This document shows, one piece after another, positions 3,617-57,285 of a DNA stretch of 64,000 nt (position 1 is the stretch's first letter; every line of letters begins with the position of its first letter). Under the pieces are notes generated by a model. That model ran no database searches and was not told the DNA's origin. It saw only the letters and a list, made by a program, of their open reading frames with translations. Both the position numbers and the translations under genes were made by a program. Where the stretch lies: positions 18,080,501 to 18,144,500 of the forward strand of contig NC_079886.1 of the NCBI RefSeq assembly GCF_029227915.1, in the 5' to 3' direction. This stretch comes from Hydractinia symbiolongicarpus. Lineage: Eukaryota > Cnidaria > Hydrozoa > Anthoathecata > Hydractiniidae.

Positions 3617-3677
3617 GTAGTTAGGCTTACTAGGGTCTAAGTTTTCATCGATAAATAAATTGACTTTCTTTAATACT

Positions 3678-5720: not shown

Positions 5721-5868
5721 TTTCTTTATTGACTTTGTTAGAATATAGTCGAGAAAGACTTACTTCTTCATCCGAATCAATACTTATGTATTGTAATTCA
5801 TATGGCTCATCAACTGTCGTTAGATCAATGTAGGTTGTATGAAGGTATATTTCTAAATCTCTCTTTCT

Positions 5869-11319: not shown

Positions 11320-11352
11320 ACATTGTTGAAATATATCGCCGGCATCATTAAT

Positions 11353-20800: not shown

Positions 20801-22320
20801 TTTTTCGTTATTTTATTCAGCCTTGTGCTCCTATGCATATGACATGCAGTTTTGTTCTGAAACTAAACTGAGTTCGAAGTTAATTCAAGTATGAAATAGA
20901 CTGTTTAAGAACCTGGTTATCTTTTGTTGCGTATATTTTTGTTCCTTATTCAGCTTTCATCTTGTATATCATTGAGGTGGTCAAGTTAAACATTATTAAG
21001 CTGTTATGTTACTATGTAGTGCTAACTAATTTTCACATTTCACATTTATTGAAGTCGCTACTACCATTTGTAACAAGTAGCGCATGTGAAACGTTGTTTC
21101 TGTTCTGTATATACCTTATTCATTTTCTTCAATGGTTTCAAGAACCATTGCAAGTGTTGTTTGCTGTCGAAATTATTGGATGTTTAATCAGTTTAATATC
21201 TAAATGACTAGTGGAAGTATATCATTTTATCTTATCCTCAGATTGTAGATTATGTACGTAGTAAAGGTTACAGTATTTTATGTCTTTAGCTAGTTATAAA
21301 ACTCACAAGTGCCAAGTAAAAGCTTTTAATATGCTATAGCTAATGCTAACTAGAAATAATAAATTTCTGGTTACATGTCTTTTTATAAGAAACTTGTTTA
21401 TAAGAAAACGAGTAGCTACCCTATTTTGCTTCTCCAAATATAAGTATAAAACCACAGAAAGTACTAAAATCGTAAGGTTCAACTTCTGTGAGTAAAAAAT
21501 CGTCAGATTTTTTTTTATTCCAGTGTAAATAACGTAAATTTAATGGTATTTTAATGTGAAGAATATCAATTCTGCACGTCTGCGCTTTGTTACTATGTTA
21601 CTTTTTATACTTTTTGCTCATATTTTTGTTTTAAAACGACCTGAAAAGTATGATACGTGATGAAATATTTATTGTCAAATATACCTTGTTTTCAAACCTT
21701 ACCCTATCGAGCAAGTAAATTCTAAAATGCACGACCTCAAGCGGGTTGAATGATGCGTATACAGTATCTCTTTAATAATAGCCGTATTCTGTGTTTTCAA
21801 AATGGTTGCGCGCAGCTTGTTCGGAAAAATAACGCGGACCCGATTTTTACGGACCTCCAGCTTAATTTCGAAATAATTTCGGAATCACGCCAGAAACGGA
21901 TGAACAACATGCTACGGAGGCCATTTCAGCTTGAAAGTGAGGGTGTCAAGTTTGCAGATCTGTTTGACCTTTTTGTCTTCCCTAAGCTTTTTAATTTTGT
22001 AGTATTTGTTTTAACATGGTAAGGCACATATATTTTTACGTTTTTTTAACCACGTACAAATCTTAAATCATCGATTTTAAGACAAGTTGTCTCTTTTTGA
22101 ATATCGGACGGCGAGACGAACATGGCCCTGGTGGAGGCTGATCAAAAATCTTTGATTTTCGCAGAGTTTTAATTAATGCCCTCGTGTCTTGTTTATCAGG
22201 AATTATATACTTCCTAGTCTTTGGTAAGCGAGTTTCAATTTAATTATTAGGGTCTGGATTTTATCGTGATCGATGGAAATAGAACTTTTTAGTGAAGACT
22301 GGACCTTGAAGGCTTTAGGT
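20800..22320. other. Non-coding stretch with one repeat copy
   Basis: AT-rich, without a supported gene. At 21,763-21,800 the reverse complement of the 'ggctattattaaagagata' repeat end occurs (tctctttaataatagccgtattctg), so a decayed copy of the LTR-like repeat lies here on the minus strand. Confidence 0.45.
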
Positions 22321-22390
22321 CGTGATAGCTCTAACGTATGTTGATATTTTAAAGCGAATATCTTTCGCATTAAATAATTACATTTTTCAG

Positions 22391-23745
22391 CTTTGCCTGA
22401 AACCAAAGCAAGTCATATGTTTGGAAGCTTTGTTAAAGGGGAATGATGTGGTGGCAGTTCTTTCTACTGGATTTGGAAAATCAATTATTTTTCAATTTAT
22501 TTTTCATTTACTTTTCATTTTTAACTGGGAAGAGATCTGTCTGTTCCCAGTTAAAAATGAAAAGAATATTGTTTTGGTCATCAGTCCTTTAACTTCCATT
22601 ATAAATGATCAGGTGAAATGCTTGAATAGGATTGGTTTTTCTGCTGCTGTATTGAATTTGGAACAGAGGAAGTTTGAGGCAGATGCAAGCTTGTTTGGAA
22701 GTAATGATGCAGTGGAGGACGACGATGATGATACAAATATTACAATTGATTGTGGTATTAAAAATGGAGATATTAAGATTTTATATGCCCATCCAGAATC
22801 TTTTTTATCTGGTCAAGGGCGTTCAATTTTAAAGAGCAAAATTTATCAACAAAATGTGGTAGCTTGCGTGGTTGATGAAGCGTATTGTGTTGAAATGTGG
22901 TAAGTAAACTAGCTCTAGCTGGCTATTCAAGAATATAGATTATAGAATTATAAAAAAATTTGGTGGTTTTTAAAATTCATTTTATAAAATAATAATGAAA
23001 TACTGTAGGTATGTATAGAGCACATATCATATGAAATATTTAACAAAACTGAATATATACAGTATAAAAATCTGTTATATATATATAGCTATATGTAATA
23101 TGTAATATATATATGAAAATATATAATGAAACTAATATAAACGAACATATCTTTTGACAAGTTGATAATATATATCTGTTGGTACATAATATAATAAAAT
23201 GCTAATATATAAGCCTATACAAAATTTAAAAAAAACACTCCATTTATATGTTTTAGGGGTGCTGAAATTTGTGAATATTTTGGAAAATTATGCACACTGA
23301 AAGCTCTTTTTCCAAGCACACCCATGATTGCTTTGACAGCAGCTGCACCCCCAAGAAAAATAAAAATTTTAAAAAAGAAACTATGTTTAAGTCCTTATTG
23401 TAAGGTTGATGTTGCAAATCCAAATAGAAAAAATATATTTTTAAAGAAAATGCCAGGACGCGGAAACAACTTTGGCTTAAGAAGCTATGATGATACTTTA
23501 GTTCCCATTGCTAAAGAACTAGATAAATTACGGGTTGATTATCCAATGACAATCATTTACATGAAGCTAAAATATTGTGGCTATGCTTATTCTTATTATT
23601 TCAGCAAACAGCAACTCCAAATAACACAAAGCTATTTTGTCAATTTCATGCTCCTCAAACATCTAGAATGAAGAAAGCAATCTTAAATGAAATTACAAAA
23701 AAAGATTCGTTGCTTAAGGAAATTTATTCTAAATTTCTTTGTTTT
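22391..23745 (+). pseudogene. RecQ-like helicase, two exons, decayed
   Basis: Exon 1 starts after ttttcag (22390) and ends 22899 (atgtg|gtaagt); exon 2 starts 23257 (ttttag|gggt). Motifs: LKPKQVICLEALLKGNDVVAV, Walker A STGFGKS, VISPLTSIINDQ, ILYAHPES, and VVDEAYCVEMWGAE across the intron, where RecQ has DEAHC. The usual His is Tyr. Exon 2 has STPMIALTAAAP and later HAPQTSRMKKA, but a frameshift near 23,625 is needed. RecQ unwinds DNA 3' to 5'; copies like this are common as repeated, probably mobile, genes in cnidarians (from memory). No other RecQ domains follow. Confidence 0.75.
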
Positions 23746-28113: not shown

Positions 28114-28468
28114 CAGTCGACGCTCATTATCTCGAACCTCCGTTATCTCGAACTTTCTCTATCTCGAACTTTTTCTTCTGTCCCTTGAGTTCTGTAAGCA
28201 ATAGTAGGCAAAAAAACGTTCGGTATCTCGAACCTCCGTTATCTCGAACTTTTACTATCTCGAACTTTTTTCTCAGTCCCTTGGACTGATTTACGCTCGT
28301 TATCTCGAACTCTTGAAGAGGAATTTTGAAAAAAGAAGACCTTGCACTGCTTGATTCAGAAGAAGACCTTGCACTGCTGAAGTCACAAAATGTTGCAATA
28401 AAAAGAAGACATTCCATTGTAAAACAGGTAGATTTTGCAATGTTTTTTTTGTGATTTCCTTTGTCAGA

Positions 28469-28800
28469 ATGCCACCGAAAAGAAAGCTCGTTGTAAAAAC
28501 ATTGGCAGAAAAATGCCAAGCATTAAAAGAATTGGAAAAAGGTATTCCAAATAAAGATATCGCTAAAAAGTACGGGGTGCCTAAAAACACGATATCAACT
28601 TGGCTAGCCAATAAGGAAAAACTTTTTTCTGCTCTCGAAAAATCTTCAAGCAAGAAAAGAAAGATCAGAGATGGTAAATTCTCAGAAGTAGATCTTGTCG
28701 TGTTCAAATGGTTTGTTTCACAACGAAGCAAAAACATACCAATCGATGGGACAATACTAAAGGAGAAAGCTAAAAGCTATGCACAGGAGTACGGCCAAGT
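28469..28800 (+). pseudogene. Tigger transposase N-terminus, CENP-B-like DNA-binding domain
   Basis: ATG 28469 begins MPPKRKLVVKTLAEK. The first helix-turn-helix includes LEKGIPNKDIAKKYGVPKNTISTWLANK; after a KKRK basic patch the second (Tc5/CENP-B type) begins with FSEVDLVVFKWFVSQRSKNIPIDGTILKEKA. These two domains recognise the element ends. The frame ends soon after YAQEYG where the deletion junction lies. The true C-terminus resumes in another frame at about 28,803. Confidence 0.85.
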
Positions 28801-28802
28801 AC

Positions 28803-29046
28803 AGATGAGAATGACGAGGAGCATGATGAAAATGCCGATGTCATCGAGGTGTTTGATGAGCCAGTGAGCAAGCCAACAAAATCAGAAATAAACACTGCAG
28901 TGGAGACTTTACAAAATGCTTGTCTATTCACTGATGATGGAAATGACATGCAACGCCTCCTGCTTCGCTTTGAAGATTTGTTTCTTAAAAGTGAAATGAA
29001 AAACAAGAAGCAAACTAGTATTTTGAGCTTTTTCGATCAAAAATAA
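28803..29046 (+). pseudogene. Tigger transposase C-terminal tail
   Basis: In the frame that reads TDENDEEHDENADVIEVF (acidic linker) and ends QTSILSFFDQK followed by TAA. The end matches the usual Tigger tail (…KQTSITDFF). The catalytic DDE domain, roughly 250 residues in full-length relatives, is missing between this and 28,800. Confidence 0.8.
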
Positions 29047-31860: not shown

Positions 31861-31999
31861 ATGAAGATTCCAGTAGTTTTTATATTTTGTTTGATCAGTG
31901 CAGCCTGTGCGCATTCACTATTTGGCATACCGAGATATGTCCCTAAGCGCTATCGAACATCCTACGCGAAGAAAAACAATGTTGCCAAAGAAGAAAAAG
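31861..31999 (+). CDS. Exon 1: signal peptide and propeptide
   Basis: Encodes MKIPVVFIFCLISAACAHS, a typical secretory signal cleaved near ACA-H, then GIPRYVPKRYR and a Lys-rich tail. The KR pair is in the place where minicollagen propeptides are cut. It ends in phase 1 (aaa g|gtatta). Confidence 0.8.
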
Positions 32000-34900
32000 G
32001 TATTATACAAAAAAGGATTTAAATTTATTAATGTTTAACAATAAAAGAACAATATACGAAAGTAATACTTTTAGTAATTTAAGACATTCTTAGAACAGAG
32101 AGGAAAAGAGTACAATCGAGGGAAATCAAAGCGAATTATCACAAAATTTGTCCCTAGTTTTCTAATTTTCTGATATGATATAAATGCTGCAAAGAGTATT
32201 TAATATGCAGTTAAAGACATTTTGGAAAAATTTGACAATACTAGTCGTTAGCCCGTGAAAATAATCCACGGGTTCGCCCGTCCTTTTTATAACGGTTTGC
32301 GTGATTCTCGCTACTTGCGTAGCTAAGCTACCATTTTGCGTCACAGACACACGGACGGACAGACGTATACGGGTATTATAATATAGACTAGCCGGGAAAC
32401 CCGGCGTCGAAACGCCGGGGTAAGCCACAAGTCAAGGTGTGACCATGCGTTGAACGCCCTGAGGAGTGCTTAATAAGAGTCGTAAAATGCGCCACACGGT
32501 CAGGTGGAGCGCTTTAGTACAGGTATGTAGTATGTCGTAAATCAAGTGAAGTGTATACGCCATTGTAGTTTTGCGACTGTAACATATTTTTCCAAAAATA
32601 ACTTTCCCGCAACAAAGGCTAAAATAGAAACAGAGTTTACAAACCGTTGTTACTCTGTCATAGCAAAAACAATTAGTCAATATTATTTTATTTTGCGGAA
32701 TAAGTTTCAGTAAACGTTAAAAAATTAATCGTGGCATCGGGCTAAGCGTTTAGTAAGTTAAACAGAGTTGAAAATGCGTGTATGGACAATACCCTTTTAA
32801 AATAAATTTTTAAATAAAACCACAAAAAACAGTCCATTACCAACACGGGATTGAGCGGTTAGTCCAGGTAAACAGTGTTGCACACCCGTACAGACGTGAT
32901 TCCCGAGAAAATTTAGAAAGTAATTGTCACAGTGGGCTGACCCCTTAGTACAGGTAAACCACATCGCACATACTCTAGGCGTAACAGCTTTTCCAAACAA
33001 ACAGTCCATCGTTAACACTGAGCTTAGCACTTAGTACAGGTAAAATGTGTCGCACATGCCTATAAGCTTAATAGCCTTTTCCAAAATACTTAAGTTTAAA
33101 TAAAAACACAGGAAACAGACCGTCGTTTAACAACACGGGAAAGGCACATAGCACAGTTATGTGTCCTGTCTGTGTCTCATTAATAAACTTTTGAATGTCG
33201 CTATAGTTTATATTACAGTAAAGTGGTAGCTAACTACTTAATTGCATTTAGTATGAAAAAGATTACTTAAAAATTCTGTTGCAGCCAACTGTATTTGGTT
33301 ACTTTTACATTTTAGCTAGAGGTAGCTAACCCCAGTTCACAACTAAAAATCAGATTGGCAAAGTTACCACAAAAATCCGAAATGTTAGCTAACATCTACG
33401 TTGGTAGCCAGAATCTTAAAATTGGTTTTGTTTAAGATTAATATATGGCTAGAGAACGTGACAGTAAGAGGCAAATAAAACTAATACAAATCTTTAGGTG
33501 GCTGAATAGGTAGCTTAGCTGGTAGCTAGCTAGTTAACTATAAAGTATAGGTGAATAAACATGTAAACAAATAAAAAAAATACCCGAAAGTAAAAGAAAC
33601 TGCAATCCTGTTAGAATACAAATAGTAGTATCAGAAAGAAAAATTAAAGCAAACAATTAAGAGACTTTTCTTTCTCCAGCAATGAGTTGGTTCAATCTGC
33701 TTGCCAATTTTCGGACCGATGACGTAAAAATCGTTGCTAAGAAATATAAAGAGCTTTAGTTTCTGATTGGTCATTCATAGAAGACTCCGCTCCTGATTGG
33801 ACCTTTATTTTAGCGGCAATTGTCCCTGTGCCGGTGGGGGCCCGACGGGTTTCTCGTCCCTGCGTATTTTGTATTTCGTGCGTGGTTAACACAAGTCGCT
33901 TTTGACGCACGAACAGACGGCTATTATTATAGAGATAAGAAAAGTAAAAAACTATTTCCTTTTAAATTACCAGGCAGACCAGCACCTATTTTAGATAACA
34001 AAGTTATATTTTAGAAAACAAAGTGATCAAAAGCAACGATTACGTTATAGATTATTTTGTTATTATCGTACGACTTTGTACCCCTTCCTGAAAGTAATTC
34101 CAAACAAACAATTATTCTATATTCTTCTTTATTCTTTAACCCATATTTTTAAAACCTTGCATTACACAACATTACTTCTTTTTTTTGCAGTTTGCTTTGA
34201 CCCCATTGATCTGTTATTTATGAGTGAGTCCTCCAAAAGCACGGCACCTGAAATCTACCAAAAGACGTTAGAGTTTATGGCTTCGATAACGAAAGCATTT
34301 GATATCCAGGAAAAAGGTACGAGCGTGGCGGTTATACAGTATGCAACAAACGCTAAAGTAATATTCGATTTTAACAAATTTAAAGGAAAGAATATTAGCA
34401 AAGAAAAAGTGGTGAATGAAATAATGAATATACCACCTAGCAATGGCGACTCGACAAGAATGGAAAAGGCTTTAAAACTTGGTCTCAAAGTTTTTAGGGA
34501 AGAGCATGGCAGTCGCAAAAACGTTTCCAAGGTATGTTTGTGGAGGGCGAATAACTGATATTTGATGTTATACTACAAGCAAGTCTTAGCTAGCTTTCTA
34601 ATTTCTGTACTAAGTCCTCTAATCAAAATTTTTTATAATAATCACCAAGAAGACTGCAGTTGCAATAAAATCTAATTGCTGTTGAACAAATTCTTTTCTT
34701 TGTAGATTGCAATTCTTATGACAGACGGCGTACAAACGTATACGTTAGAAGACCCTAGATTATTAGAAACCTCAAAGGAATTGCAAAAAGCTGGTGTCCA
34801 CGTGTATACAGTAGGTGTTGGTGTGAAAAACTCGAAGTCTGAATTAAAAGCTATGGCTTCTGACTTAGACAGTACGTTTATCTCAGATAATATAGACGAT

Positions 34901-37900
34901 TTAGTGAAGATTGGAAAGAAACTCACCAAAAAAATATGCGAAGGTAAGGTAAACTATTTCTTCGTACGATATCAATGACGTAAGATGAAAATCACGTACG
35001 AAACAAAGGTACAACCACTTAAACATAACTTTTTCTCTTTTTTAAAACAACCAGATTTCCATCCAACTACAACAAAGCCTTCAATCACTACGCCCGTTCC
35101 AGTTTCTCTGCAAGTGAGAGCGTTAACCACGCTATCATCAACCACAACATGTAGGTTTAATTTGTCAACCTAGAAGACATTTAACGGCAGTTCTTAAATT
35201 TTGATTTAAATATATGTAAATATATAAATAACACGAAAAGGGCCAGAAGATAGCAAAAAAAATCTGGCTAATAACTACGTTAAAATGGCCGCTTTGCTTG
35301 TAACATAGCTAGAGCTTGTATAGGTTAATTTTCCCACCTTTATTTATTACTAACCGTGGAAACTAAGATAGCGGAAACTCCACGGGAATTCGATTGTCGC
35401 AACTCAAAGCTACCATTTTTGTCTGACTATTTAAAAGTCGGACGTTAATATATAAGCAAGTCGTGAGCCCGTGGAAGAAGCCACAGGCCCGCCGGTCCTT
35501 AGAATTTCGCGCATTGTACGTATTTCCGCATTGTTATTTCGTGCAAAAGAGACCGGTCGCTAGCACGTGGAAAAAGCCACGGGTTCGCTTGTCCTTCATA
35601 TAACGGATATTTTGTGTTATATATTATTGTAAGGGCTAGGTCAGACCGTGGATATTCCATGGAAATTCGCCCGTAACAATAAGATTGATAAAACTATATC
35701 CTAATCGTTATTTATAGCTTAAAGATTTTTTGCGCGGTTAAGTATGTATACAGCATTTCGTTCATCTGTAGCACGAAATTTTTCTCGAAACTGGCAGACT
35801 AAAATGCACGAAATACCGATTCGGGAAACATGTACGACGGGCTGAAGTCTGAGAACAGGCAAGTCGTGGATTGGTAATACAGGTATTAATAAAGAGATAT
35901 ATTTTAATATAGCTTGTCCTGTCGCTTTGGATTTGGGAATATTAATTGACGTATCAGAAACAATTACAGATCAGCACTTTGAAGAAATCAAAGAATTTGT
36001 TGCACATATAATTAATGAATTTGACATCAAAGAAGAAGGTACACATGTTGGCGTGATAACATTTTCAACAAATCCTCGCCTGGAATTCGATTTTAAAAGA
36101 CTAAAGGGAAGGTACACTAAAGGGAATGTGATGGCATTGATAAGCAGGATCAAACATTTAAAGGGTATGACACGGATCGACCGAGCATTGGCGCTTGCTA
36201 AAACAAAATTGTTTAGCAGTAAAGGCGGAGCTCGCCCGGATAAATCACAAGTAAGAAATCCCTTTTTCTTAATGCATCAGTTATTATTATTACTATTATT
36301 TACCCGTTACTGCTATTATTTACCTAGCCTCCTAAGTTCTCAATAAAACTGTTATCAATGACTGTCATTCGAAGGGGATCTAATGCATTTTAAGCTCCCA
36401 TTTAAGCTACAGAAGGCAAGCAAGCACAACCGCCGCTTAACTAAACAACCACCTAAATTAACAATCCTATTCTCATGCTCAACGTTACGCAGAAAGAATT
36501 GACTCAAACTTTTATGGTTTCTGGCACGACTCCTCCAGGGCTTAAACTCAAGACCTACCGCACTAGAGGCGAACACTATACCACAAGGGCATCAGTCAGC
36601 CCTTATGTTAATGTTTCCAATCTATGTATATTTTTTTAGCGAAGACTTAATACTTTCAAAAATTAGTTTAGTAATAATTCTAAAATATCTTCCTCTGTTT
36701 TATCAGGTAAGGTGAATGATCCGAAAGAAGAAATAAAACTAATTTCTTTTCCTTTTACATCGATTAATAGCTTTATTATATGGTGATAAAAAGTCTTTCA
36801 ACCCACCAGACTGCTTATTTTTATTATGATCACTTTTAAACGCTTTCTCATAAGTGCAGAGCATATTCTCTGAAATCGTTCTATTCCAAAATCTTATCAG
36901 AAATGAAGAGGATTACTGGTTTCATTACCGTGACACATGATTATACCTCGATCTGGTTTTAGTTTGTTTAAAAAAAATTCACCTTTACTTAATGTCACCC
37001 CATGTTTTAGGCCCCTAAAAACTTCTATTCTTACTTGATAAATCGTGAAAAATCATCCGTCCAATTTAGTTACTGCTAAAATCACAGGTACTGAGACACT
37101 GACATATGTTCATATACATTATTATCTTTCTTCTCACATATTTTTTATTTGTTCAGTCACAAGAAGTGAAGCTAAGAAACCGTAATGTGTTTGTTTACAC
37201 CCTGAAACATGAGGAATGACTGTTTCAACCATTTTGCGATAGCACATAGTCTGGAGACAAGTCTTTGTTCCTTGTTCTTTATAATCTGTTGCATATCTTC
37301 TTGGATTCTCTTCAAATGCAAACCTAAAAACATTAGGGTGCAATTGGTAAACAGGCAACAACTAATTACCAAATATTTGAAAAGTGCTAACACTTCCTGT
37401 TAATTTTGATAATATCTAGGTGGCTGTAATTTTGACAGATGGTGTACAATCAGAAGAGAAGGAATCACCAGGAGGTAAAGATCCTAAATTGGTTGCACAA
37501 CCTCTAAAAGATGCTGGAGTAAAAATATACACAATAGCTATTGGCGGTTTTAATTTGGGAAATTTAGTTGGCATTGCTTCCGATCCGAGTAAAGTGCTAC
37601 GAGGAGGTGATTTTGGAAATTTGTTGAAAGAAGTCAACCATGTTACAGATGCCGTTTGCAAAGGTAAAACACTAAACGAAGTTTTAACCGTGCCAAATTT
37701 AAGTGCAAGTCCTTATAACACAAGAGCAATTCTTGTCAAGTGTAAATACATAAGTAAAACGGATACCTTATACATTTAGATGAAAAGGAGTTAACGACAA
37801 CTATTTCTCCGACTACAATAGCAACAACAACAACACCAACGACGACTGAAGGTAACTACTAACTTGAGTATTACAGCAGTAAAAGTCTACTACAAATTTA

Positions 37901-40339
37901 TTAATTTGGAAGCATCTTAAGGTCATATGCTCTTTTAGATATTATTTATTATGTAAGGCTCGTATTTTGTCTGCGTTTTCCCCTAATAGCGCCAAAAGCT
38001 GAAGAGTTTTCTACTCTCGAACAGAAATCAATCTCCATGTGTTTCAATTTCTTCACGCGCGAAATGAAATCGACAAGGTAGTTTGGCAGCTGCTATAAAC
38101 AAGGAATTGTTTCAAAATATTAAATTGTATCTAAGAAAAAATGTTGGTATAATGCTTGCCGTTCCAAGAGAGACAATTAAAAGTGCAGTTAACTTTTGCA
38201 AGGATGTCTTATGCTTAGGATATTTCCTTTATGCACGTAGTCAAAGTCCTTTTCTAAAAACAATATAACGTTTGTTTAAGTTTGTGCAGTTTCTGTGGAT
38301 CTGGGAATATTGATCGATGTTTCGGAGGCAATTCAAGAGAAACACTTTAATAAAATGAAAGAATTTGTATGGCACGTAATAAATGAATTTGACATCAATG
38401 AAGATGCTACACATGTTGGTGTGATAACATATTCAACATATCCTCGCCTGGAATTTGATTTTAAAAGATTAAAGGGAAGTTACACTAAAGAGAATGTAAG
38501 AAAATTGATTAACAGGATAAAACGTTCAAGGGGGGAGATTCATATCGACAGGGCCATAGAGCTCGCTAAAACAAGACTGTTTAGTGAGAAAGGTGGAGCG
38601 CGACGAAATAAACCGCAGGTGCGTTTTTTTTAAAATTAATTTTATCTTCATTTGTTGATTTGCCTATTGCAAAAATGTAAATATTAGACAAATAAATTAA
38701 TAAATAAGATTTTTTGCACAGCCACCATGTTACAACAACTAAATACAACAAATAAATTATTTTTTACCTAAAGTCTGTGACATAAATGTATAGTTGTTTA
38801 TCGTTTAGGTAGCCATAATTTTGGTAGATGGTGACAAAAAAATTAAAGAAAAACTCGACGATATCGTCCAAAATTTTAAAAACAATGGCGTAAAATCATT
38901 TATGATAAAGATTGACTATCATATTCTAGACTCGTGGGCCTCTGCCATATCAAAACATTTATGTAATAAAGGTAATATAGCTTGGTATACTCCTAATATT
39001 TCGACGGAGGGATGTGACATGCTAGTCGCCCTCCGTATGAAGTGAATGGCTTTCTCATAATGCTAATTTTTAAACTTTCTTTCATCCTGTTTTAGTTATA
39101 AAAGAAAACGTATCTACAACTGTCGCGCCATTTTCAACAACAGCAAACCCTACAACAACAACAACAACTGAGTCGATAACGACTGGAACAACAACAACCA
39201 CAAACGAATCAACGAGACCAACAACTGAAGTGACGACAACAGCAACAATTGAACCAACCATAACAACAACTGTGCCAACCGTAACAACAACTGTTCCAAC
39301 GACAATGACAACAACCACAACAATGACAACAACGACATCGACAGCAACAGCTAAGCCGACGACAACAACTACAACTACAGCAGAACCAACCACAACCACA
39401 TCAGCAACTACACCGACGACAACTACCACAAGTATTATAACTACAAAAGTAAAAACTACCACAAGACCGACAACAAGAACGACAACAAAAACAACAAAAA
39501 GTACAAAGAAACCAACGAAGACTAAAAAAACTACAGTTGCTACTACTACCAGAAAAATAACCTCGCCCATTTTGGTTTTATCAACAACTGAAACTACAAA
39601 AACCACAAAACAAAGAAAGACGACAAAAATAAAGACAAAAACAACAACTATTAAAACATCCAGTATAACCAAACCAAAAACAACAATTCGAACGACTTCC
39701 ACGCCGGTTTCTAAATTAATAAAATCAACAACAACAACAACAACCACAACAAAGCCAACAACAACAACATCAACAACGACAACCACAGCAACACCCACTT
39801 CTACTGCAACATCTACAACTTTTCGGACAGCTGCATCAACCTCTACCACAACCGCAACTGACACTTCAACAGAAAGTTCAACAATGCCTATCACAACAAC
39901 ATCCTCAACAATAACAACACCAAATGCGACTACACCTGTAACAGCATCTCCTACAACAGTTTTTACAACACCAGAAATAAGCACCGGATGGTCATCTACT
40001 GTCATGACTTCACAGACACCAACAGAAACCGTATCGGCAATAACGGCCTTCCCAACAGACCAAACTATAACAACTCCATCAACTTATTGCCCACCAGTAT
40101 GTCCAAATAATTGTCCACCACAGGGATGCCCACAAAATTGCTGCGTCGCAGAAGGCTCCAATTATCCAAAACAGTACGACATTAACTTGATGTCACAACC
40201 AACATGTCCGCCCCCCTGTGTACAAAACTATTCTCCATGTATGTCAGAAAATTGTGACGAACAGTGTCCAGTCTCTTGCGCTATCAACTGCGCTCCGTCA
40301 TGCAGAACAGAATGTTGTGAAGATACGTTTTACAATTAA
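31861..40339 (+). CDS. Secreted VWA x3 - Thr-rich - minicollagen CRD protein (nematocyst wall candidate)
   Basis: Ten exons: 31861-31999, 34191-34531, 34706-34943, 35055-35150, 35913-36250, 37420-37663, 37780-37851, 38290-38618, 38809-38971, 39096-40339. All junctions are GT-AG, phases match, and the sum is 3,204 nt (1,067 residues). Residues 1-17 are a signal peptide; VPKR at about 27-30 is a possible dibasic propeptide site, as in minicollagens. VWA domains at about 48-239, 273-465 and 491-653; Thr/Pro-rich mucin-like stalk about 655-983; two mCRD-type Cys clusters about 984-1061. mCRDs are known to cross-link minicollagens and NOWA in the nematocyst wall through disulfides, so I infer an extracellular structural role there. 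No Gly-X-Y collagen repeat is present. TGA/TAA lesions: none. Confidence 0.88.
32244..33950 (+). mobile_element. Second full copy of the LTR-like repeat, in intron 1 of the VWA gene
   Basis: Starts at about 32,244 with tagtcgttagcccgtg and a hairpin (cccgtg...ccacggg), then the interior from about 32,390 (tagccgggaaacccggcgt) with repeats of 'gcttagtacaggtaaac', then an end unit at about 33,820-33,950 finishing 'ggctattattatagagata'. Structure and order match 14092-15694. It is within the 2.19-kb intron 1 (32000-34190). Confidence 0.75.
34191..34943 (+). CDS. Exons 2-3: VWA domain 1
   Basis: Exon 2 (34191-34531) and exon 3 (34706-34943) form one module, entered and left in phase 1 with an inner phase-0 intron. 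It opens CFDPIDLLFMSESSKS, in which the MIDAS DxSxS motif has Glu for the first Asp. It continues TSVAVIQYATNAKVIFDF and IAILMTDGVQTYTLEDP, ending VYTVGVGV and CEG. VWA domains mediate protein-protein contact in matrix proteins; metal binding may be weakened here. Confidence 0.88.
35055..35150 (+). CDS. Exon 4: short Thr/Pro linker
   Basis: 32 residues, phase 1-1, including FHPTTTKPSITTPVPV. It separates VWA1 from VWA2 and has the same flavour as exon 7 and the start of exon 10, so linkers seem to have been duplicated with the VWA modules. Confidence 0.75.
35310..35905 (+). repeat. Cluster of end units of the LTR-like repeat, in intron 4
   Basis: Three or more degenerate copies of the hairpin end unit: gtcgtgagcccgtggaagaa (about 35,460), ggtcgctagcacgtggaaaa (about 35,555) and a weaker one at about 35,640. 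The stretch ends 'acaggtattaataaagagat' (35,879-35,898), like the other copies. No interior sequence is present. Confidence 0.55.
35913..37663 (+). CDS. Exons 5-6: VWA domain 2
   Basis: Exon 5 (35913-36250) and exon 6 (37420-37663) with the same phase 1-0-1 layout as VWA1. Motifs: ALDLGILIDVSETI with intact DxSxT MIDAS residues, THVGVITFSTNPRLEFDF, VAVILTDGVQSEEKES and VKIYTIAIGG. This is the best-preserved of the three VWA domains. The 1.17-kb inner intron holds a tRNA-derived SINE. Confidence 0.88.
36350..36610 (-). mobile_element. tRNA-derived SINE, in VWA2 intron
   Basis: On the minus strand, TGGTATAGTGTTCGCCTC (36583-36566) fits an RNA polymerase III A box and GGTCTTGAGTTTAAGCCC (about 36,554-36,537) a B box, spaced as in a tRNA. 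About 200 bp of body follow to about 36,350. The spacing and flanks fit a SINE rather than a functional tRNA, since no acceptor stem is formed. Confidence 0.6.
37780..37851 (+). CDS. Exon 7: Thr-rich linker
   Basis: 24 residues, phase 1-1, reading ELTTTISPTTIATTTTPTTT. Likely O-glycosylated spacer between VWA2 and VWA3. Confidence 0.7.
38290..38971 (+). CDS. Exons 8-9: VWA domain 3, shortened
   Basis: Exon 8 (38290-38618) is close to exon 5 (VDLGILIDVSEAI, THVGVITYSTYPRLEFDF), showing recent duplication. The last MIDAS residue is Ala. Exon 9 (38809-38971) has only 54 codons against about 80 in VWA1 and VWA2; the TDG loop reads LVDGDKK and the following strands are compressed. The frame stays open, so this is a diverging domain and not a dead one. 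Confidence 0.8.
39096..40339 (+). CDS. Exon 10: Thr-rich stalk and double minicollagen CRD
   Basis: 414 codons including the stop. The first about 330 are Thr with Pro, Ser, Lys and Ala, from (ACA)n-like DNA, a mucin-like or proteoglycan-like stalk. Then CPPVCPNNCPPQGCPQNCC (C-x3-C-x3-C-x4-C-x3-CC) and, after a short spacer, CPPPC and the canonical CDEQCPVSCAINCAPSCRTECC, preceded by extra Cys. The Cys spacing is that of minicollagen cysteine-rich domains. The opposite strand gives a long Val-rich shadow ORF, an artefact of the Thr codons. Confidence 0.9.
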
Positions 40340-40578
40340 CCTGCGCTATACTAATTGTTGAAAACGCAATCATACGATTAATAGTTAGACGTGACCAAAT
40401 TAGATACAGTTTAAATGTGCTACATGTTATGATATACATGAACGAACAAATAAGGAGAAATTAGGCTAAGAAATTGCTGTGACCTTACTGCTTTTAGTAC
40501 ATTTAAAAGCAACAAACGCGAAGTAAATAGCTTAGAAAAGACAGATTTAGTACGATTTAATATATATTTATTCAACAA

Positions 40579-40584
40579 ATAAAT
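40579..40584 (+). terminator. Poly(A) signal AATAAA of the VWA-mCRD gene
   Basis: First AATAAA after the stop, 240 bp downstream; another lies at 40679-40684. Either may be used. Confidence 0.5.
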
Positions 40585-40599
40585 TCTAAATACTTAAGT

Positions 40600-41610
40600 A
40601 CGAACGTTATGCTTTTATAATAAAATTTTTAGCTAGCTCAAATTTTTAGCTAGCTTGCTATTCTTGTTTTCTATTATCAATAAAACCAACTTAAAATCAC
40701 TATAGCTTCTCAATTCGTCATGTACATTTATCATTAATGTCTTTTTTTACCAACGTTTACAGTAAGCAACCTTCGCCGAAACTGCCTCAAATACCTTCAT
40801 TTCCCGTACTTAATTGCGAATTCATATTCTTAAAAATGATAGCACTGTCAGTGAAAAGGTAAATTCTCATAAACTTTTACTGAGAGACTAATACTAGTAA
40901 AATTGAATACCAAAGGGTAGTCTAATATTGTACACAGAGGTGGATCAAAATTACGAACTTAGTTGTCATTCGAAAATGACGATCTTTTTTGCACCATTTG
41001 ATGTCTTTCAATGAGTCAAATATACTCAAGCTAAGGAGTATTACAACTACCGTGGTGAGTCGACGCGTCTAAGATAAGTTGCTGGTTGTTTGCTGAGATT
41101 GCGATAAGCACTTCCAGTTTGGTGATAAAATGCGAAATAAGGAATATTTAGGTTAAAATCAATATTTTTTTCATCACATTCGAACCTAGAATTAAAGGCC
41201 CCAGATAGCCCGCCCTGCAGGATGGCCCAGAAAAATAACAACCAAAACAACAATGATGAACATATTTATATTACGGTATTTCGATTAAGGCAACGGCGAA
41301 ACCGTAGTTTGAATGGACTGAAACATAAGTTTACTTTCAACATTTTGATTCTTAATAAGGCTTTTTTAGAACTCAGAAAAAAATTTCAAGCAGGATTTTT
41401 ATTAACGCATATCTATCTCCTTTACGCAAAAAAAAAACACAAAATCAATTATACATTTGACAAAAAGTGCGTATTTCTGTAAGGTACGTAAATATTAGCC
41501 TTTTTTATTTTTTGTAATTTTTTGTATCTATTGAACATGTCTATCAGGCCTATTGAAAGCAGTTCCTTTTTCTAAACAGCCACCAAAACCTTCTGCATAA
41601 TTTAATCTCG
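40600..41610. other. Spacer between the two mCRD genes
   Basis: About 1 kb with no supported gene. It holds the 3' end of the first gene and the promoter region of the second. Short open stretches here have no recognisable domain. Confidence 0.45.
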
Positions 41611-41615
41611 TTCGG

Positions 41616-41623
41616 TATAAAAA
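41616..41623 (+). promoter_or_regulatory. TATA-like box before the Ig-mCRD gene
   Basis: TATAAAAA in the context cggtataaaaaagacaag, 64 bases before the first base of the ATG at 41687 and 40 before that of the alternative ATG at 41663. A start about 30 bp downstream would fall near 41,646. Confidence 0.45.
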
Positions 41624-41671
41624 AGACAAGCAGTAGTTGTTGCAAGCCCATTTGTACCTTACATGGGTTTC

Positions 41672-41684
41672 TCTTTTTTTGCAG
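41672..41684 (+). promoter_or_regulatory. Splice or trans-splice acceptor before the start codon
   Basis: ctctttttttgcag ends at 41684, two bases before ATG 41687. With a TATA box only about 70 bp upstream there is little room for a normal 5' exon. Spliced-leader trans-splicing is known in hydrozoans, so this may be a leader acceptor (inference). If it is not used, translation could start at ATG 41663 in the same frame. Confidence 0.4.
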
Positions 41685-41686
41685 TA

Positions 41687-41816
41687 ATGCAGTTTTGGCT
41701 TCCATTTTACTTCTTAGTTTTAATTGGCCATAATGTTTCTAGCAAACTTGTCGCACAAAGAGCGTTGAAAGGAGTAGAAAGGATGGAAGAAAATAATAAA
41801 TTTACGGAGAACCGAT
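41687..41816 (+). CDS. Exon 1: signal peptide
   Basis: Hydrophobic core FWLPFYFLVLIG, probable cleavage after NVSS. Then a charged segment with GVERMEENNKFTENR. Ends in phase 1 (cga t|gtaagt). Confidence 0.75.
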
Positions 41817-44800
41817 GTAAGTCTGTTATCAGTACTGGCAGGTTTTATAAAATTAGAACCACTTTATGAAAACAAGTTGCTACTATAAAAAACTAGCTGT
41901 AATTTTTAATTTAATTTACATTTTTTTTCTTAAAGCGTTTATTCGAATGACTCATCATACATTAGTGCAACCTACTAAAAATCTTGTGGAAGGTACGACT
42001 TTGATATGTGAATGCTCCGCTAGTGGTTACCCACAACCTATCATTTTCACATGATGGTTGAATTCTAATAATATTACTAATCACAGTGTTTCTACGCTTA
42101 CGACTAAAAACGAGTTCGTGACTGTAAGAAGTATCCTTAAGATGGAGAATATTCGAAGAGATGACATTGGTTTACTTGAATGTCTGGCAACAAATGCATT
42201 TGGAAACGTTTCTCGCGCTACAAATATCGTTGTAAAATGTAAGTATATTTTGTACTATTTCTACAGAAAACTACAATTAAAAAGTTAGCTAAGACGCAAT
42301 AGAATGCAAATGTTCAACAATTATTAAACAATAGATTAACGTGCAACATATGTATCATGAATCTTAGATCCACCAAAGTTAACGCGATTAACGCGATATC
42401 ACGGTCCAATTAAGAAGCTTAACTTGAGATGGACATCCCAAATGTCATGCATTGCTGAGAGCAAGGAGTTGGCAACCATTACATGGTACAAGGATGGCAA
42501 GAAGATGTGGCATAATGGTAAAATTAGGATCGTTGTAGTTCCTGGGCCACGGACCAACCAAATTAGAAGTATATTAAAATTGAAACCGGTAACATTGGAG
42601 TCTGGTGGTGTGTATACGTGCAACGCTACAAACAGCGTGGGGTATGATATACTTTCAACCAAAGTGGAAGTTTTTTGTAAGACATTTTTTACGCATTGTT
42701 TCTTTCTTAAACCAGATTTTATAGTCACTCCGGATCTTTTCTAGAGACCACTAAGTTATATCAGAATAATTCTGAATTGTCTGAGTCACAATATATATGG
42801 ATTTTTTAATTCCTCTTTTCCCCTCAATTTCGAAGCTGTTTTTGACTGCAATACTAACTGTGAAGTAGTGAAGAAGAAGGAATGAGTTGAGGGGACGGAG
42901 GGGAGAGGGGAGAGGGAAAGAGAGAGAATTAAATACTTTTCCACTAAATTATGTGCAAAATTTAAGATACATTAACTAATAATAATGCCATGAACTGGAT
43001 GCTTTAGATTTATGGTTAGTTAGCTGGTAGAAAAATGGGTACAATGCATTGGGAGGTGTAACTTGACATAACTAGAAGCCGCTTGTTTGAAGTTAAAAAA
43101 AAAGTTATGGTTATTGAATCATTTAATAAAATCTCTGTCCCCGTACTATTTGAATAAAAACCCTATCCATCTACAGTGACATCTCATCCTTTATACCTGA
43201 TGAAATGATAGTATAAATCCCAAAAAACACCCTCAATTTAGCGAACACTTTAAAGCAGACACCTGTCCATAGGGGACGCCATTTAAACCTTATTCGCGCC
43301 CGCCCAACCTTTTTCTTATAACTTCTGAAGCATATTGTTTTACGACGTAAAAATTGGTGACTTTTCGTCATTTTTAGTTAGCTTCAGAAAAGTAAAAAAA
43401 ATGTTTGGTATGGCGTCACGCCTGTTTCGGTGGTCAGAAAAAATCTAGGTTTAAAGTCAGCTTTTAGTTATGTTTCTATAAGTAATTTACACAAAACATT
43501 TGGAACCACTTTTTTTATCCCAATATATGTGTTCCAATGCCTTTGGGGGGGGGGGGGGTTGTAAAAACAAAATGACGTCATCTTGGACTGCATGACATCT
43601 TCGAATTTTTTTTATCCTTATTTACTACCGTGCTAACAAACATTCGTGTCACAAAATCCACGTCTTAAATGTTAATCGAAAAAATTAACTTCACGCCGTG
43701 AATAATATTAATTTAACATCAATAGCTTAACTTGAGATGATGAAGCCATTACAATGCCTTTACAATCTTGAGGCGAATTAACTTGGAAACGAGGTGGTGA
43801 GGTCATTTTTAACAGCATGGATACCTACGGACAACCTGGTACCAAAGTGGGTACAAAACTTGTGACCAAAGTGGGTTTCTGAATCCCTTTCGGAATGGAT
43901 GGGTTGATGACGTCATCAAAACACCTTTAAACATAAATATTTCAGTAACCGTCCCCCCAAAGTACATGATCCTATATAATTTCTTGATCGGCGTTTTAAG
44001 CTCTATACGATAAAGGCAACGGGTAAACAGATTTTCCTGAAACTATTTTTGTTTATTATCAACCCGTAAGCGAATTGCTCTGTCGAATATTTTTAGATAA
44101 TTAATATCGTATATTTGACACTCTTTCATCTTTTATCGGTTCCTAGGAAAAACAATTCAATTAATCCTAAAGAATCTCGACAAAGGAGAGTGGCGGAAAA
44201 ATGTTTATTGTTAAATGTTTCATTGTTAAGCTTTCTAGATAATTTTGATATGTTTCACAAACAATATCAATTCTTTTTTTGGGAGGATGATAAAACATGG
44301 ATTCGGTGAAATCGGATATCAAAATTATTGAGACTAGCTTTGATGATATGCGACTCAGGTGCGTTTCGTCGAATATCACAAGCTGGACTGAAAAATTTTT
44401 GAAATTCGGTTTCACCTAATTTAGTATCTGTTTAATATGTACTGCTGATGTCAGAAACTCCTAACACAACCTATATTTTTCCATTGTTCTTCTGTCGAAG
44501 TGGATTTTTCCAAAACAATACAACCTTATTTCGAAGTTTGTTTTCTTTATTAGGGGAGGTCTTGATACGAAGATTTCCTTCAGACATTATCTCTGCTGGC
44601 GTGACGCAGAAAAATTACACAATTCGATGTATTGCAACTGGAAAGTTGGCGCCAACTGTTACATGGTTGAAAGACAATAATTCCATTTTGTTTCCACAGC
44701 TAAACTATCATCGTTCAGATGTAAAATATGAGACGGCTGTTGATTCTACGTTGAGAATAGTCAGAGTCGGTTTAAGTGATTTTGGGAATTGGACTTGCCG

Positions 44801-47304
44801 AGTAAGGAACAGGATTGCTGGAAATTTCATATCGCATGATGAAAAAACTACCCTGTTAAAGATGTCAAGTAATTTTTTTTCTTTTTATCTTGCTTTATGT
44901 CAAATAACTTTACGTTTGATTTAGACAAATGTCATTTGTTATTCTTCAAAGGCGACTGGTACGCTTTTTATATGCGCGGTAAATCTTAAGCTATTAAAAC
45001 CATTTCTGTCATAAGCAACACAAAATATTGATAGAGGGTCAACGTTGCTTTAAGTTCTGTATTTAAAACGCTCTGTTACTTACTTGATGTTTGTCAATTA
45101 TTTACCTACAGATACCAAATCTCGCTTTGCTTGACTTTAAAGCAATTTTAATTTTGAAGTCAGGCTGGATATGCTTATGCTAAGAACACAGTCAGGCTTA
45201 GCTTACGTCATGCGTACTGCAAAAACAATTCTTATGGGATAAGATGAAAGGATTCTGCTTTTTGCTTTAAAAAAAGAGCGACAACACTAAAGGTAAAATT
45301 AATTAGACAGAAGCGTGGTTAATTGTTCGATAAAATTCGATGACCCGACTACGTACGACGGGAGAACTTGTAGTTTTTAGTAAGTAGACCGGCGCTACAA
45401 TTGAAATTAATCTTTGAAAGCAAAGAAAACTCCAGAAAAAGATTGTTTTTAATAATCCCTGTTTTTTTTTGACCTCTTTCCTGTTCTTATTCCGCTTTTG
45501 CTTGCAAGTTACTTCATTTTTAAAGATTTTTAAAGATTTTTAAAAAATGCGTTCAAAATTTTTTTCTAACAATAAAAAGGTCTTCTCTTTTCTGACGGCT
45601 CAGAATTTATAAATTTTTTACAAGGGCCTGATTTCTTATTTTTAGTGTGAAACAGCATAGTTTTTGTTCGAAATGTTTTTTATTGTTCTTTTAACCTTTC
45701 TTAAAAAAAGATCACTTTTTATATCAAATCAAGCGCAGCGTTGCTTAAGTCAATGGCTTCATTGCTGATAGTAAATTTCTTTCGTCAATCACACAGACGA
45801 TATTATTGAAAATAAAAATTCGAACGCTTTAAATGAAATGTTCGTAATTTAAAGTATTTAATCTGCACTGTAATGAACTTGTAAACAAAATATTGATTTA
45901 CTGTTCTTCTGCAAACAAGTCCCTTGCTTCAAAAATAGTCATTTACAATATAGTAGAACAATACATGTAGTATTTTACTTTTGTTAAACATTCTACATTT
46001 GTGTACATCACAACCTTCTAAGAGTAATTAACTTAGGGAAGTTTTATTAAAATTGTTATTTCTAGAGCGAATGTTTGTTTTGCATTTGACAGAACAGATA
46101 ACGCTGCTGTGTTTAAGATCCTATTTTCTTTCCACACTGCATACCTGCTTCAAAAGGTATTTCTACAGTGCAACAATGTTAATTAATTCTCGATTTTTAG
46201 ATCCCCCTACTTTCGTAACAAGCTATCCTGCAACAAGCTACCGCGTCAATGAAACAGACACAATAACAATGTCTTGCAGAATTAAATCATATCCAAAACC
46301 TTTTGTATGGTGGCAAATGGCCACTGGAGTCAACATTGATCAAAGATTTGAATTTAAAACGACCCTGATTTTTGGAAATGATAAACACAGTATCGCAGAA
46401 AACAATTTAACGATAAGCAATGTTTCAATGTCAGATCAAGGAATGTACACATGTCATGGAAATAATACAGCCATCAGTATTAATAAGACTTCACTCCTTC
46501 ACGTTACAGATGCGTAGATAAGTTTAAAATAACCGCCATTATGTACAATAACGGTGTTTTATTTAAATAATATTTATTTAATATCGCCCACGCACTTTAG
46601 CAGATCAATTACCTCTATGGTCAACACCAATATAGGCATTTGATCGAAATGGTTATATTACGACCTTATCTATTTTATAGTCATTGCACAGAGAATAAAG
46701 CCAACTACTGTAATCGCTCTGAAAAATAATTTGCCGTTTTCTTACCATTTCCTCTCACTGATTTTAATGTAGATTTTCTATTTGTTATCACTAATATGGA
46801 ATTATTTTCTTTCTTATAGAGATGCCAACCATAAAAACAACATCATCATCAACAACAACAACTAAACCTACAACAGAAAGTAATATTACCGCGACCACGA
46901 CCACAACGGCGGCAACACCCGGAACAACGTCGACGACAACAACTGGAACAACGACAACGAGTACAATAACGACGACAACAGGGACAATGACGACAACAAC
47001 CCCATCTCCTGTACAAACCAGCGCAACCACAAGCAAAACTACCTTAGTAGAGAGAACATCTCCAAAGTTGCATTGTCCACCAATATGCTCCGATGATTGT
47101 CAAAGGGGAAGCTGTACAAGCTGTTGCCTACCTCAAGGATCCGTATATACTGGCACACAAACATGTCCTCAGGGATGTCATCCCGGTTACCATATACCGT
47201 GCAATAATAATAATTGTAACCAACAGTGTCCCCAATCATGCGTAGTGCATTGCTCCCCATGGTGTAAAAGACACTGTTGCAAAAATATCAAGCTTCGTAA
47301 TTGA
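41687..47304 (+). CDS. Secreted Ig x4 - Thr-rich - minicollagen CRD protein, with two lesions
   Basis: Exons: 41687-41816, 41936-42238, 42368-42676, 44554-44868, 46201-46509, 46820-47304. Lengths sum to 1,851 nt (616 residues plus stop), every module in phase 1. Signal peptide (MQFWLPFYFLVLIGHNVSS), Ig domains about 44-144, 145-247, 248-352 and 353-455, Thr-rich stalk about 456-540, mCRD clusters about 541-609. It is the plus-strand neighbour of the VWA-mCRD gene and shares its C-terminal design, so I infer a partner protein of the nematocyst wall or matrix. Two problems: an in-frame TGA at 42052-42054 (residue 83, where Ig1 should have Trp), and no GT after exon 5 (AT at 46510-46511). It may be a young pseudogene, an allele, or corrected by RNA editing or by sequence revision. 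Confidence 0.75.
41936..42238 (+). pseudogene. Exon 2: Ig domain 1 with in-frame TGA
   Basis: I-set-like Ig fold: LVQPTKNLVEGTTLICECSASGYP, then PIIFT-TGA-WLNSNN, and DDIGLLECLATNAFGNVS. Both Ig cysteines are present. The conserved tryptophan region should read TWW; the first of the pair is TGA. One G-to-A change from TGG explains it. The rest of the exon is intact, with good splice sites (ttcttaaag|cg, aaaat|gtaagt). Confidence 0.75.
42368..42676 (+). CDS. Exon 3: Ig domain 2
   Basis: Phase 1-1 exon. Landmarks MSCIAESKELATITWYKDG (Cys and Trp) and LESGGVYTCNATNSVG (the D-x-G-x-Y-x-C type motif, with Glu for Asp). Ends gtt ttt t|gtaaga. Confidence 0.85.
42861..42928 (+). repeat. Purine tract in intron 3 of the Ig gene
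   Basis: About 68 bases, nearly all A/G apart from a few breaks, with ggggagagggg and agagagaga words. May form triplex DNA. No known function. Confidence 0.6.
43545..43558 (+). repeat. G14 homopolymer
   Basis: Fourteen consecutive G in intron 3. Prone to G-quadruplex formation and to length errors in sequencing. Confidence 0.85.
44554..44868 (+). CDS. Exon 4: Ig domain 3
   Basis: Phase 1-1 exon. Landmarks YTIRCIATGKLAPTVTWLKD, LRIVRVGLSDFGNWTCRVRNR. Preceded by a 1.88-kb intron with a purine tract and a G14 run. Ends atg tca a|gtaatt. Confidence 0.85.
46201..46509 (+). CDS. Exon 5: Ig domain 4, donor site lost
   Basis: Landmarks PPTFVTSYPATSYRVNETD, TMSCRIKSYPKPFVWW and MSDQGMYTCHGNNTA. 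To stay in phase with exon 6 it must end at 46509 (aca g). The next bases are ATGCGTAG in place of GT. One G-to-A change from GTGCGT would explain it. Without splicing the frame closes at TAG 46515-46517. Confidence 0.75.
46820..47304 (+). CDS. Exon 6: Thr-rich stalk and double minicollagen CRD
   Basis: Starts after cttatag, phase 1. About 80 residues of Thr/Ser/Pro, then CPPICSDDCQRGSCTSCC and, after a spacer with two more Cys, CNQQCPQSCVVHCSPWCKRHCC, an exact C-x3-C-x3-C-x3-C-x3-CC. Order and spacing equal those of exon 10 in the upstream gene; the stalk is about four times shorter. AATAAA at 47409-47414. Confidence 0.88.
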
Positions 47305-55813: not shown

Positions 55814-56284
55814 CTATATGAGGTGCTCTTTTAATAATAATGAAAATTTAGTAAATGACATTTCACTTTTGATATTTATAGGAAGTTCATTGTAAAGTTT
55901 TGCAGCCATAAACCAACTGGGCCGTTTTCCATACTCCGTTCTCAGGGCGGGAAGACGTAAAGATACATTGTTGTTTCTCGTCGCGAAGGAATAATTAACT
56001 TTCTCGAAGTAGTTGTGAAAGTTTTCACATATCATATCATCAAGGCACTTTCGAACGAATTCGCAGGCTGTTCTCTTCCGGAAGCCTTGAATTGTTGGTA
56101 GTTTCGAATCGTCAGTGTTTCCAAGTATACGTGCAGCTCTCCTTTCAAACGTAGTATACTTTTTCAGTTGCGTTGGTGTTTGTTTCAATTGTACAAGACT
56201 ACAGTATCTGAACATCGGGAGGACCATAGTTGTGTAGATAGCATTAGCTATGTCAATGTCCATGCGATTTCGTAATCTTGCCAA
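55814..56284 (-). pseudogene. LINE ORF2 C-terminal region
   Basis: 156 codons. YTTMVLPMFRYCSLVQ and LERRAARIL-like text, then KRPSWFMAAKLYNELPINIK, typical of the region behind the RT thumb. It overlaps the RT frame by 37 bases at a frameshift. Confidence 0.75.
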
Positions 56285-57246
56285 GAGGTTGAGACGTGCA
56301 CTTTCTTTCTTATAATCAAATCAAACTGGCTGTTTAAGTTCAAGGTACTGTCAATTTTAATACCCAGGTATTTATATGAGGTAGTAACGTTAATGATACC
56401 ATACTGATATTCGATTATTCTTGGCAGCTTAGATAATCTTTGGGCTGTACCGAACATCATGACTTCAGTTTTGTTTTTTTCCACGTTGATTAAGAGCTTG
56501 TTATCTGCACACCCGTTGCATAAGGCTGAGAAATCTGTAGACAGCTTTGACTCAATTTCATATAAATCTTTTCCAGCATAGTAAAGGACGGTGTCATCTG
56601 CGTAGTGTATTATATTACTATGTATTATATTATCACCAACGTCATTCAAGTACAGTAAAAATAGAAGTGGTCCAAGAAGTGATCCTTGAGGAACACCAGA
56701 TGTAACTGATTGTGAATTGGAATTGTGACCACCGTATACCACTGACTGCTTTCTGTTAAAAAGGTAGTCCGAAAACCAAGATAGTTCATTATCCTGTACA
56801 CCGTAAGCAGCTAATTTTGATTGGAATTCGGAATGACTTAAAGTGTCAAATGCCTTTGTGAAATCTACAAAATCTGCTCCAATAACGCAGTCACTATCAA
56901 CAGATTTTCTTATATCGTCCAGAAGAAGAGTGGTAGCTAGTTCAGTTGATCTTTTTGATCGAAAACCGAATTGATTTTTCGATAATAACTTATTTTCCTC
57001 CAGAAATGCTGTAAGTTGCTTTTGTACAGCTTCTTCGATGATTTTTGAACCAATTGGCAAGATCGAAATTGGCCGATAATTTCCGAAGTCATTCTTGGAT
57101 CCTGATTTAACAACTGGGTTCACTTTGGCAGCTTTCCATGGTGTTGGTACTAGTCCTGATTCTAAAGACATGTTGATCAAATGTGATAGTGGTGATGATA
57201 TAATTTTTGCGGTATCCTTAAGAAATCCACCGGGCAAGTCGTCCAA
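56248..57246 (-). pseudogene. LINE reverse transcriptase
   Basis: 332 codons. Blocks in order: AAKVNPVVKSGSKNDFGNYRP, QFGFRSKRSTELA, DFTKAFDTLSH (catalytic Asp), VTSGVPQGSLLGPLLFLLYLND, IHYADDTVLY (YADD intact), SYKYLGIKIDSTLNL. This is the target-primed RT of CR1/Jockey-like elements. The catalytic triad is intact; the loss of function is from frameshifts on both sides. Confidence 0.88.
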
Positions 57247-57285
57247 TCCAGTTGCTTGGTTTCGCTTGATTGATTTCAGGTAAGA

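Follow-up and report, generated by a model that had tools for sequence, protein, structure and literature searches.

The closest described systems are nematocyst proteins that carry the minicollagen-type cysteine-rich domain (CRD). CRDs are reported to polymerise, minicollagens being linked to one another by disulfide exchange (PMC4863159). NOWA is described as a C-type lectin combined with eight CRDs, its location now being given as the tube (PMC10014300), Cnidoin as a non-collagen CRD protein of the capsule wall (PMC4321713) and NSP4 as a shell protein confined to cnidarians whose Hydra sequence contains a CRD (PMC6134521). In addition, vWFA proteins are recorded among the cnidocyte-specific genes of Nematostella (PMC12549020), and in Myxozoa VWA was reported both among the matches to the nematocyst proteome of Hydra and from polar capsules (PMC4619090, PMC5566210). 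We analysed a stretch of 64,000 nucleotides from the hydrozoan Hydractinia symbiolongicarpus (contig NC_079886.1, positions 18,080,501 to 18,144,500, forward strand; hereafter the window), in which two neighbouring genes, gene 1 and gene 2, end in paired cysteine clusters of the CRD type. Both probably encode secreted multidomain nematocyst proteins, in which the CRD tail would anchor VWA modules (gene 1) or Ig modules (gene 2) in the minicollagen polymer.

A common cysteine tail behind different domains

A sequence-only reading of the window had placed two adjacent plus-strand genes at 31861-47304, each with a double cysteine cluster behind a Thr-rich stalk and each with different domains in front, and our gene models agree with it on all of these points. 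Gene 1 (31861-40339, plus strand) opens with an ATG at 31861 and has ten exons, nine GT-AG introns and an open frame of 1067 amino acids in a hand-made genomic model. It runs from a signal-peptide-like start through three VWA domains and two short Thr linkers to a 329-residue stalk (49% Thr) and an 84-residue cysteine tail. Gene 2 (41687-47304, plus strand; six exons, about 616 codons), whose stop codon ends at 47304, also has a signal-peptide-like start, after which four Ig domains lead to a stalk of 83 residues (51% Thr) and a tail of 77 residues. The signal-peptide-like starts of both genes were judged by eye. Pfam VWA matched the gene 1 protein in three stretches (E 1.8e-97; 325 bits against a cut-off of 23.8), and the Ig2, Ig3 and Ig4 exons of gene 2 exceeded the Ig_3 and I-set cut-offs (42.5-51.6 bits against 30 for Ig_3). 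Ig1, scanned as two pieces flanking an internal stop, stayed below the Pfam cut-offs. A single large gene over the whole interval was considered and rejected, as gene 1 terminates with a stop at 40339 and a separate ATG and signal-peptide-like exon open gene 2. Three features were absent from the sequence-only reading: the stretch linking the two clusters holds four more conserved cysteines, the Ig1 exon contains a TGA in frame, and a good splice donor is missing after Ig4.

A six-frame scan of the window gave the strict motif C-x3-C-x3-C-x3-C-x3-CC at exactly two places, against none in 60 first-order Markov windows. These two places are the last clusters (CRD-b) of gene 1 (CPVSCAINCAPSCRTECC, 40265-40318) and of gene 2 (CPQSCVVHCSPWCKRHCC, 47227-47280), both on the plus strand. 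The first clusters (CRD-a), located on the same strand by motif scan, read C-x3-C-x3-C-x4-C-x3-CC in gene 1 (CPPVCPNNCPPQGCPQNCC, 40088-40144) and C-x3-C-x3-C-x4-C-x2-CC in gene 2 (CPPICSDDCQRGSCTSCC, 47074-47127). The remaining loose matches in the window were Thr stalks read in reverse frames. The two tails are homologous (30 of 82 residues identical, 37%; E 6e-7) and have 16 cysteines in common, each CRD contributing six and the stretch between the clusters four. Proline at position 11 (Pro11) was present in CRD-b of both genes and in CRD-a of gene 1, the corresponding residue in gene 2 CRD-a being Arg11.

The clusters had been read as minicollagen-type CRDs, an identification that is supported by the exact spacing and Pro11 of both CRD-b and by a comparison with known structures. 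A profile of the four CRDs, run against 177,635 PDB sequences, gave five matches at E up to 10, and all five were CRDs of minicollagen (1sp7, 1sop) or NOWA (2hm3, 2hm4, 2hm6), with E-values from 0.063 to 8 that are marginal and come from a spacing-driven profile made up mostly of cysteines. No Pfam family reached its cut-off on either tail. Since a known NOWA CRD, used as a control, was likewise without a Pfam match, this silence cannot decide the identity of the tails. The nearest approach was C_tripleX (PF02363), which touched the gene 2 tail at E 0.027-0.033, and as the cluster motif is poor in information outside the cysteines, the clusters could be a convergent C-x3 repeat of this kind, unrelated to minicollagen CRDs. 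We regard such convergence as very improbable, and an identity of the tails with C_tripleX can be held only weakly. The match lay below the cut-off (15.1 against 22.9 bits), covered 16 residues of the gene 2 tail and had no counterpart on gene 1, and the terminal CC and Pro11, both features of CRDs, were kept in the last cluster of 6 out of 6 aligned tails.

The fold type of the minicollagen-type CRDs may differ between the two positions. Val or Ile at position 4 together with Pro at position 14 is reported to favour the reactive C-CRD fold (PMC4863159, available part). Both CRD-b have Ser4 with Arg14 or Lys14 and thus look like the monovalent N-CRD type, as does wild-type NOWA. CRD-a of gene 1 has Val4, a proline after the fourth cysteine and one extra residue in the third gap, and CRD-a of gene 2 has Ile4 alone of the C-CRD features. 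As the rule was derived on x3 spacing, the fold type of both CRD-a is a guess, and it is at that strength that gene 1 CRD-a could be said to resemble a C-CRD.

Related tails and the proposed nematocyst role

The sequence-only reading had also suggested a local cluster of nematocyst genes. Close to the window this did not hold: no further strict motif, and hence no third gene with it, was found in 100 kb on each flank (200 kb in total) in a scan that left out peptides with more than seven cysteines, and the idea that such genes are densely clustered here was rejected. What stood was a wider association, with relatives 2 and 5 Mb away. The tail of gene 1, used as a query against the assembly of 480,894,487 bases in 76 contigs, detected five tails (6 of 6 candidates scored), all five on the contig that carries the window (C12): those of genes 1 and 2, C at 20139585, D at 20147945 and E1 at 23146392. 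The count derives from this one query and from reading of the fetched stretches, and the family therefore has at least these members. The tails of C, D and E1 are on the minus strand, C and D lying 2 Mb and the E array 5 Mb from the window. In the 20 kb fetched, C and D formed a tandem pair, each with one VWA domain, a Thr stalk and a full tail; D alone showed a first exon. The E stretch (C12:23145001-23165000) held three genes, E1, E2 and E3, with one strict CRD each (23146448, 23152700 and 23155281, all on the minus strand). The N-terminal domains of E1 and E2 resembled Pfam YscW below its cut-off (E 0.0015 and 0.0064), and that of E3 was likened to them by eye. A VWA paralogue on contig C3, 59% identical to the first VWA domain of gene 1 over 79 and 49 residues, had no CRD in the 10 kb fetched.

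The gene 2 tail was identical to that of C at 58 of 77 positions, to that of D at 48 of 77 and to that of gene 1 at 30 of 75. The nearest relatives of the Ig gene's tail are thus those of the single-VWA genes, not that of the gene beside it. Between the tails of gene 2 and C, synonymous divergence (dS) was 1.04 and nonsynonymous divergence (dN) 0.18, other pairs being nearer saturation. We take the resulting dN/dS of about 0.17 to indicate that purifying selection has long acted on the tail, the value being an average over both lineages and so no proof that gene 2 works today.

Genes 1 and 2 both have a tail exon that starts in phase 1, as do, by eye, C, D and E1. For E2 the reading covers the donor before the tail exon, which is in phase 1. 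The VWA and Ig modules are of phase 1-1, and together these phases provide what exon shuffling requires. In the genomic models the tail exon follows N-terminal domains of no fewer than three kinds on one chromosome (VWA, Ig and, weakly, YscW-like), a distribution that would fit a spread of the stalk-plus-tail exon by exon shuffling. Going further, we tentatively suggest, as a proposal with slightly less than an even chance of being right, that this phase-1 terminal exon, usually a Thr-stalked CRD tail, is a mobile capsule anchor that was shuffled along one chromosome onto VWA, Ig and YscW-like domains, making disulfide-linked nematocyst components and so a modular toolkit for the wall or tubule.

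Domain order, tail homology, tail selection and the position of the relatives on one contig are established at the level of the genomic sequence, and we infer a nematocyst location for both proteins. In the mechanism that we propose, the signal peptide would direct each protein into the growing nematocyst vesicle, and at maturation its two CRDs and four additional cysteines would tie it by disulfide exchange to the polymerised minicollagens of wall or tubule. Anchoring by the tail is suggested because CRDs are known to act in this way in relatives. The Thr-rich stalk, probably O-glycosylated, would keep the VWA or Ig modules clear of the polymer, where they may bind matrix, glycan or partner proteins for adhesion or assembly. 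Such a display would be comparable to the presentation of a C-type lectin on CRDs by NOWA.

Several observations count against this proposal. In the CRD-a of both genes, one or two gaps differ by a residue from the strict spacing. Besides the marginal E-values of the PDB profile, single tails used as PDB queries gave no match. The E genes fit the architecture incompletely: E1 has the first cluster and no Thr stalk, E2 has a stalk and an irregular first cluster, and E3 has a stalk and a single cluster. Finally, gene 2 has a TGA in frame at 42052-42054 in its Ig1 exon, and no phase-1 GT donor was found after Ig4, where the site reads CAG-ATGCGT.

Thr-rich stalks, VWA domains and Ig domains are frequent in extracellular matrix proteins. 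The two products would thus also fit a secreted adhesive or mucin-like matrix (glue, perisarc, mucus or mesoglea), their tails cross-linking it outside the nematocyst. The wide VWA repertoire of the genome (at least 151 exon matches, with 150 of 373 candidates scored) and a sub-threshold match of the E2 tail exon to 'New_glue' (E 0.038) point in the same direction, as does a large mesoglea collagen with a CRD in Nematostella, mentioned as unpublished in the available part of PMC4863159. We nevertheless consider a matrix role unlikely. Both CRD-b have the minicollagen spacing and Pro11 exactly, the PDB profile matched nematocyst proteins only, and NvNCol-7, a long CRD collagen of Nematostella, is reported as cnidocyte-exclusive in the available part of PMC12549020. 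Placement in the nematocyst remains our preferred reading for both genes.

Exon structure of the pair and the state of gene 2

In gene 1 a phase-0 intron divides every VWA domain between two exons, and phase-1 introns lie on either side of the domain. Exon 1 (31861-31999, donor GTATTA) contains the ATG and the signal-peptide-like start. Exons 2-3 encode VWA1 (34191-34943; 34191-34531 and 34706-34943), exons 5-6 VWA2 (35913-37663; 35913-36250 and 37420-37663) and exons 8-9 VWA3 (38290-38971; 38290-38618 and 38809-38971), all three identified by Pfam. Exons 4 (35055-35150) and 7 (37780-37851) are the short Thr linkers of the gene model. Exon 10 (39096-40339), which starts in phase 1, holds the stalk, the cysteine tail and the stop. 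Judged against the metal-ion-dependent adhesion site (MIDAS) motif, DxSxT, T and TDG, VWA2 keeps a MIDAS-like DVSET..T..TDG. By the same motif, the first Asp is replaced in VWA1 (FMSES), and VWA3 is degenerate, with DVSEA and a shortened second half.

Gene 2 starts with an exon at 41687-41816 that contains the ATG and the signal-peptide-like sequence, the latter judged by eye. At 41675-41689 an acceptor-like site (TTTTTTGCAG) precedes this ATG by two bases, so that gene 2 may be trans-spliced to a leader or may have an intron in its 5′ untranslated region. The Ig domains occupy one exon each in the joined frame, in which the introns are in phase 1: Ig1 at 41936-42238 (phase 1-1, with the TGA inside), Ig2 at 42368-42676, Ig3 at 44554-44868 and Ig4 at 46201-46509, where ATGCGT stands at the expected phase-1 donor. 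Exon 6 (46820-47304) starts in phase 1, with an alternative phase-0 start at 46822 seen by eye, and encodes the stalk, the tail and the stop. All of these exons are on the plus strand.

With a stop in Ig1 and no good donor before the tail exon, the full gene 2 protein may not be made, and as assembled the gene may not be fully functional. The two faults are what would be expected if gene 2 were a pseudogene in decay, derived from an earlier Ig-CRD gene, gene 1 being the sole working member of the pair, and we view this as a real but somewhat doubtful possibility. Neither fault is fatal by itself. Because the Ig1 exon is of phase 1-1, skipping it preserves the frame, and a weak phase-0 GT donor at 46502 is frame-compatible with an AG before 46822 (the AG judged by eye). 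The tail, stalk, Ig2-Ig4 and remaining splice sites are intact, and the low dN/dS between the gene 2 and C tails also speaks against decay. The faults may be true mutations, an allele or assembly errors, and a difference of the last two kinds could account for them.

VWA sequences also attracted attention elsewhere in the assembly. At C5:10743162-10756061, 18 VWA frames follow each other at exact 729-base steps, forming a very regular tandem array. VWA clusters were found doubled with almost identical spacing on contig C4 (about 0.29-0.39 and 8.89-8.98 Mb) and on contig C3 (about 30.91 and 33.75 Mb), pointing to segmental duplications or to haplotypes assembled twice.

The remainder of the window contained several mobile-element remains. 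Helitron-like remains with PIF1 helicase and Helitron_like_N lie at 372-5868 on the minus strand (scanned over 372-2606 and 3678-4694, otherwise read by eye), followed by a retrotransposon pol with integrase at 10087-12641, also minus (11353-12641 by eye). A DDE_Tnp_4 transposase (13519-14094) and a CENP-B/Tc5-type frame (28355-28867) are on the plus strand, and a LINE-like reverse transcriptase is on the minus strand at 56248-57285. A DEAD-box helicase fragment occupies 22319-23671 on the plus strand (first frame Pfam DEAD, E 5.5e-11) and resembles a RecQ-type helicase by eye.

Comparison with described CRD proteins

If our interpretation is correct, the minicollagen cross-linking domain would be a general, transferable anchor that is not confined to a few capsule proteins. 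The genes described here would then be named candidates for adhesive or recognition roles in the nematocyst wall and tubule, and they would offer a specific possible example of phase-1 exon shuffling contributing to an organelle restricted to one phylum. CRISPR knock-in has reportedly been achieved in Hydractinia. A minicollagen reporter line also exists in this genus, according to the available part of PMC8917316. No description of a VWA-CRD, Ig-CRD or YscW-CRD protein was found in the accessible portions of the literature examined, to which the Hydra nematocyst proteome paper (doi 10.1074/jbc.M111.328203) does not belong, and an earlier description of VWA-CRD or Ig-CRD proteins is possible.

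Genes 1 and 2 share with minicollagens terminal CRDs of the C-x3-C-x3-C-x3-C-x3-CC type. They differ in being multidomain (1067 amino acids and about 616 codons) and, in the gene models, in lacking Gly-X-Y repeats, polyproline flanks and an N-terminal CRD. Neither could be classified as a minicollagen proper, as neither translation contains Gly-X-Y with CRDs at two ends and no Pfam collagen was matched by the gene 1 protein or by exons 2-6 of gene 2. Like Cnidoin, they are non-collagen proteins with minicollagen CRDs (PMC4321713, available part). Unlike it, they have no Gly-Gln-rich elastic core between two CRDs, one at each end, in their translations, and an assignment to Cnidoin proper was rejected. 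The nematocyst-linked VWA proteins have the VWA domain in common with gene 1, and a CRD tail is not mentioned for them in the available parts of the papers. NSP4 differs in carrying its cysteine- and proline-rich part at the start of the protein, the CRD being the only domain listed for it in the part of its source that was available.

NOWA of Hydra, too, is secreted, is not a collagen and has a binding domain followed by minicollagen CRDs at its C-terminus. CRD-b of both genes fits the 18-residue spacing of NOWA with Pro11, and gene 2 CRD-b has Lys14 in common with the solved NOWA CRD. Neither gene is NOWA proper, as there was no lectin match (gene 1 protein, gene 2 exons 2-6) and each gene has two CRDs, not eight. 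In place of the lectin, genes 1 and 2 have VWA or Ig domains, followed by a Thr stalk and by four extra cysteines in the tail. Non-collagen CRD proteins are already known in NOWA and Cnidoin, and to these the two genes would add VWA and Ig versions.

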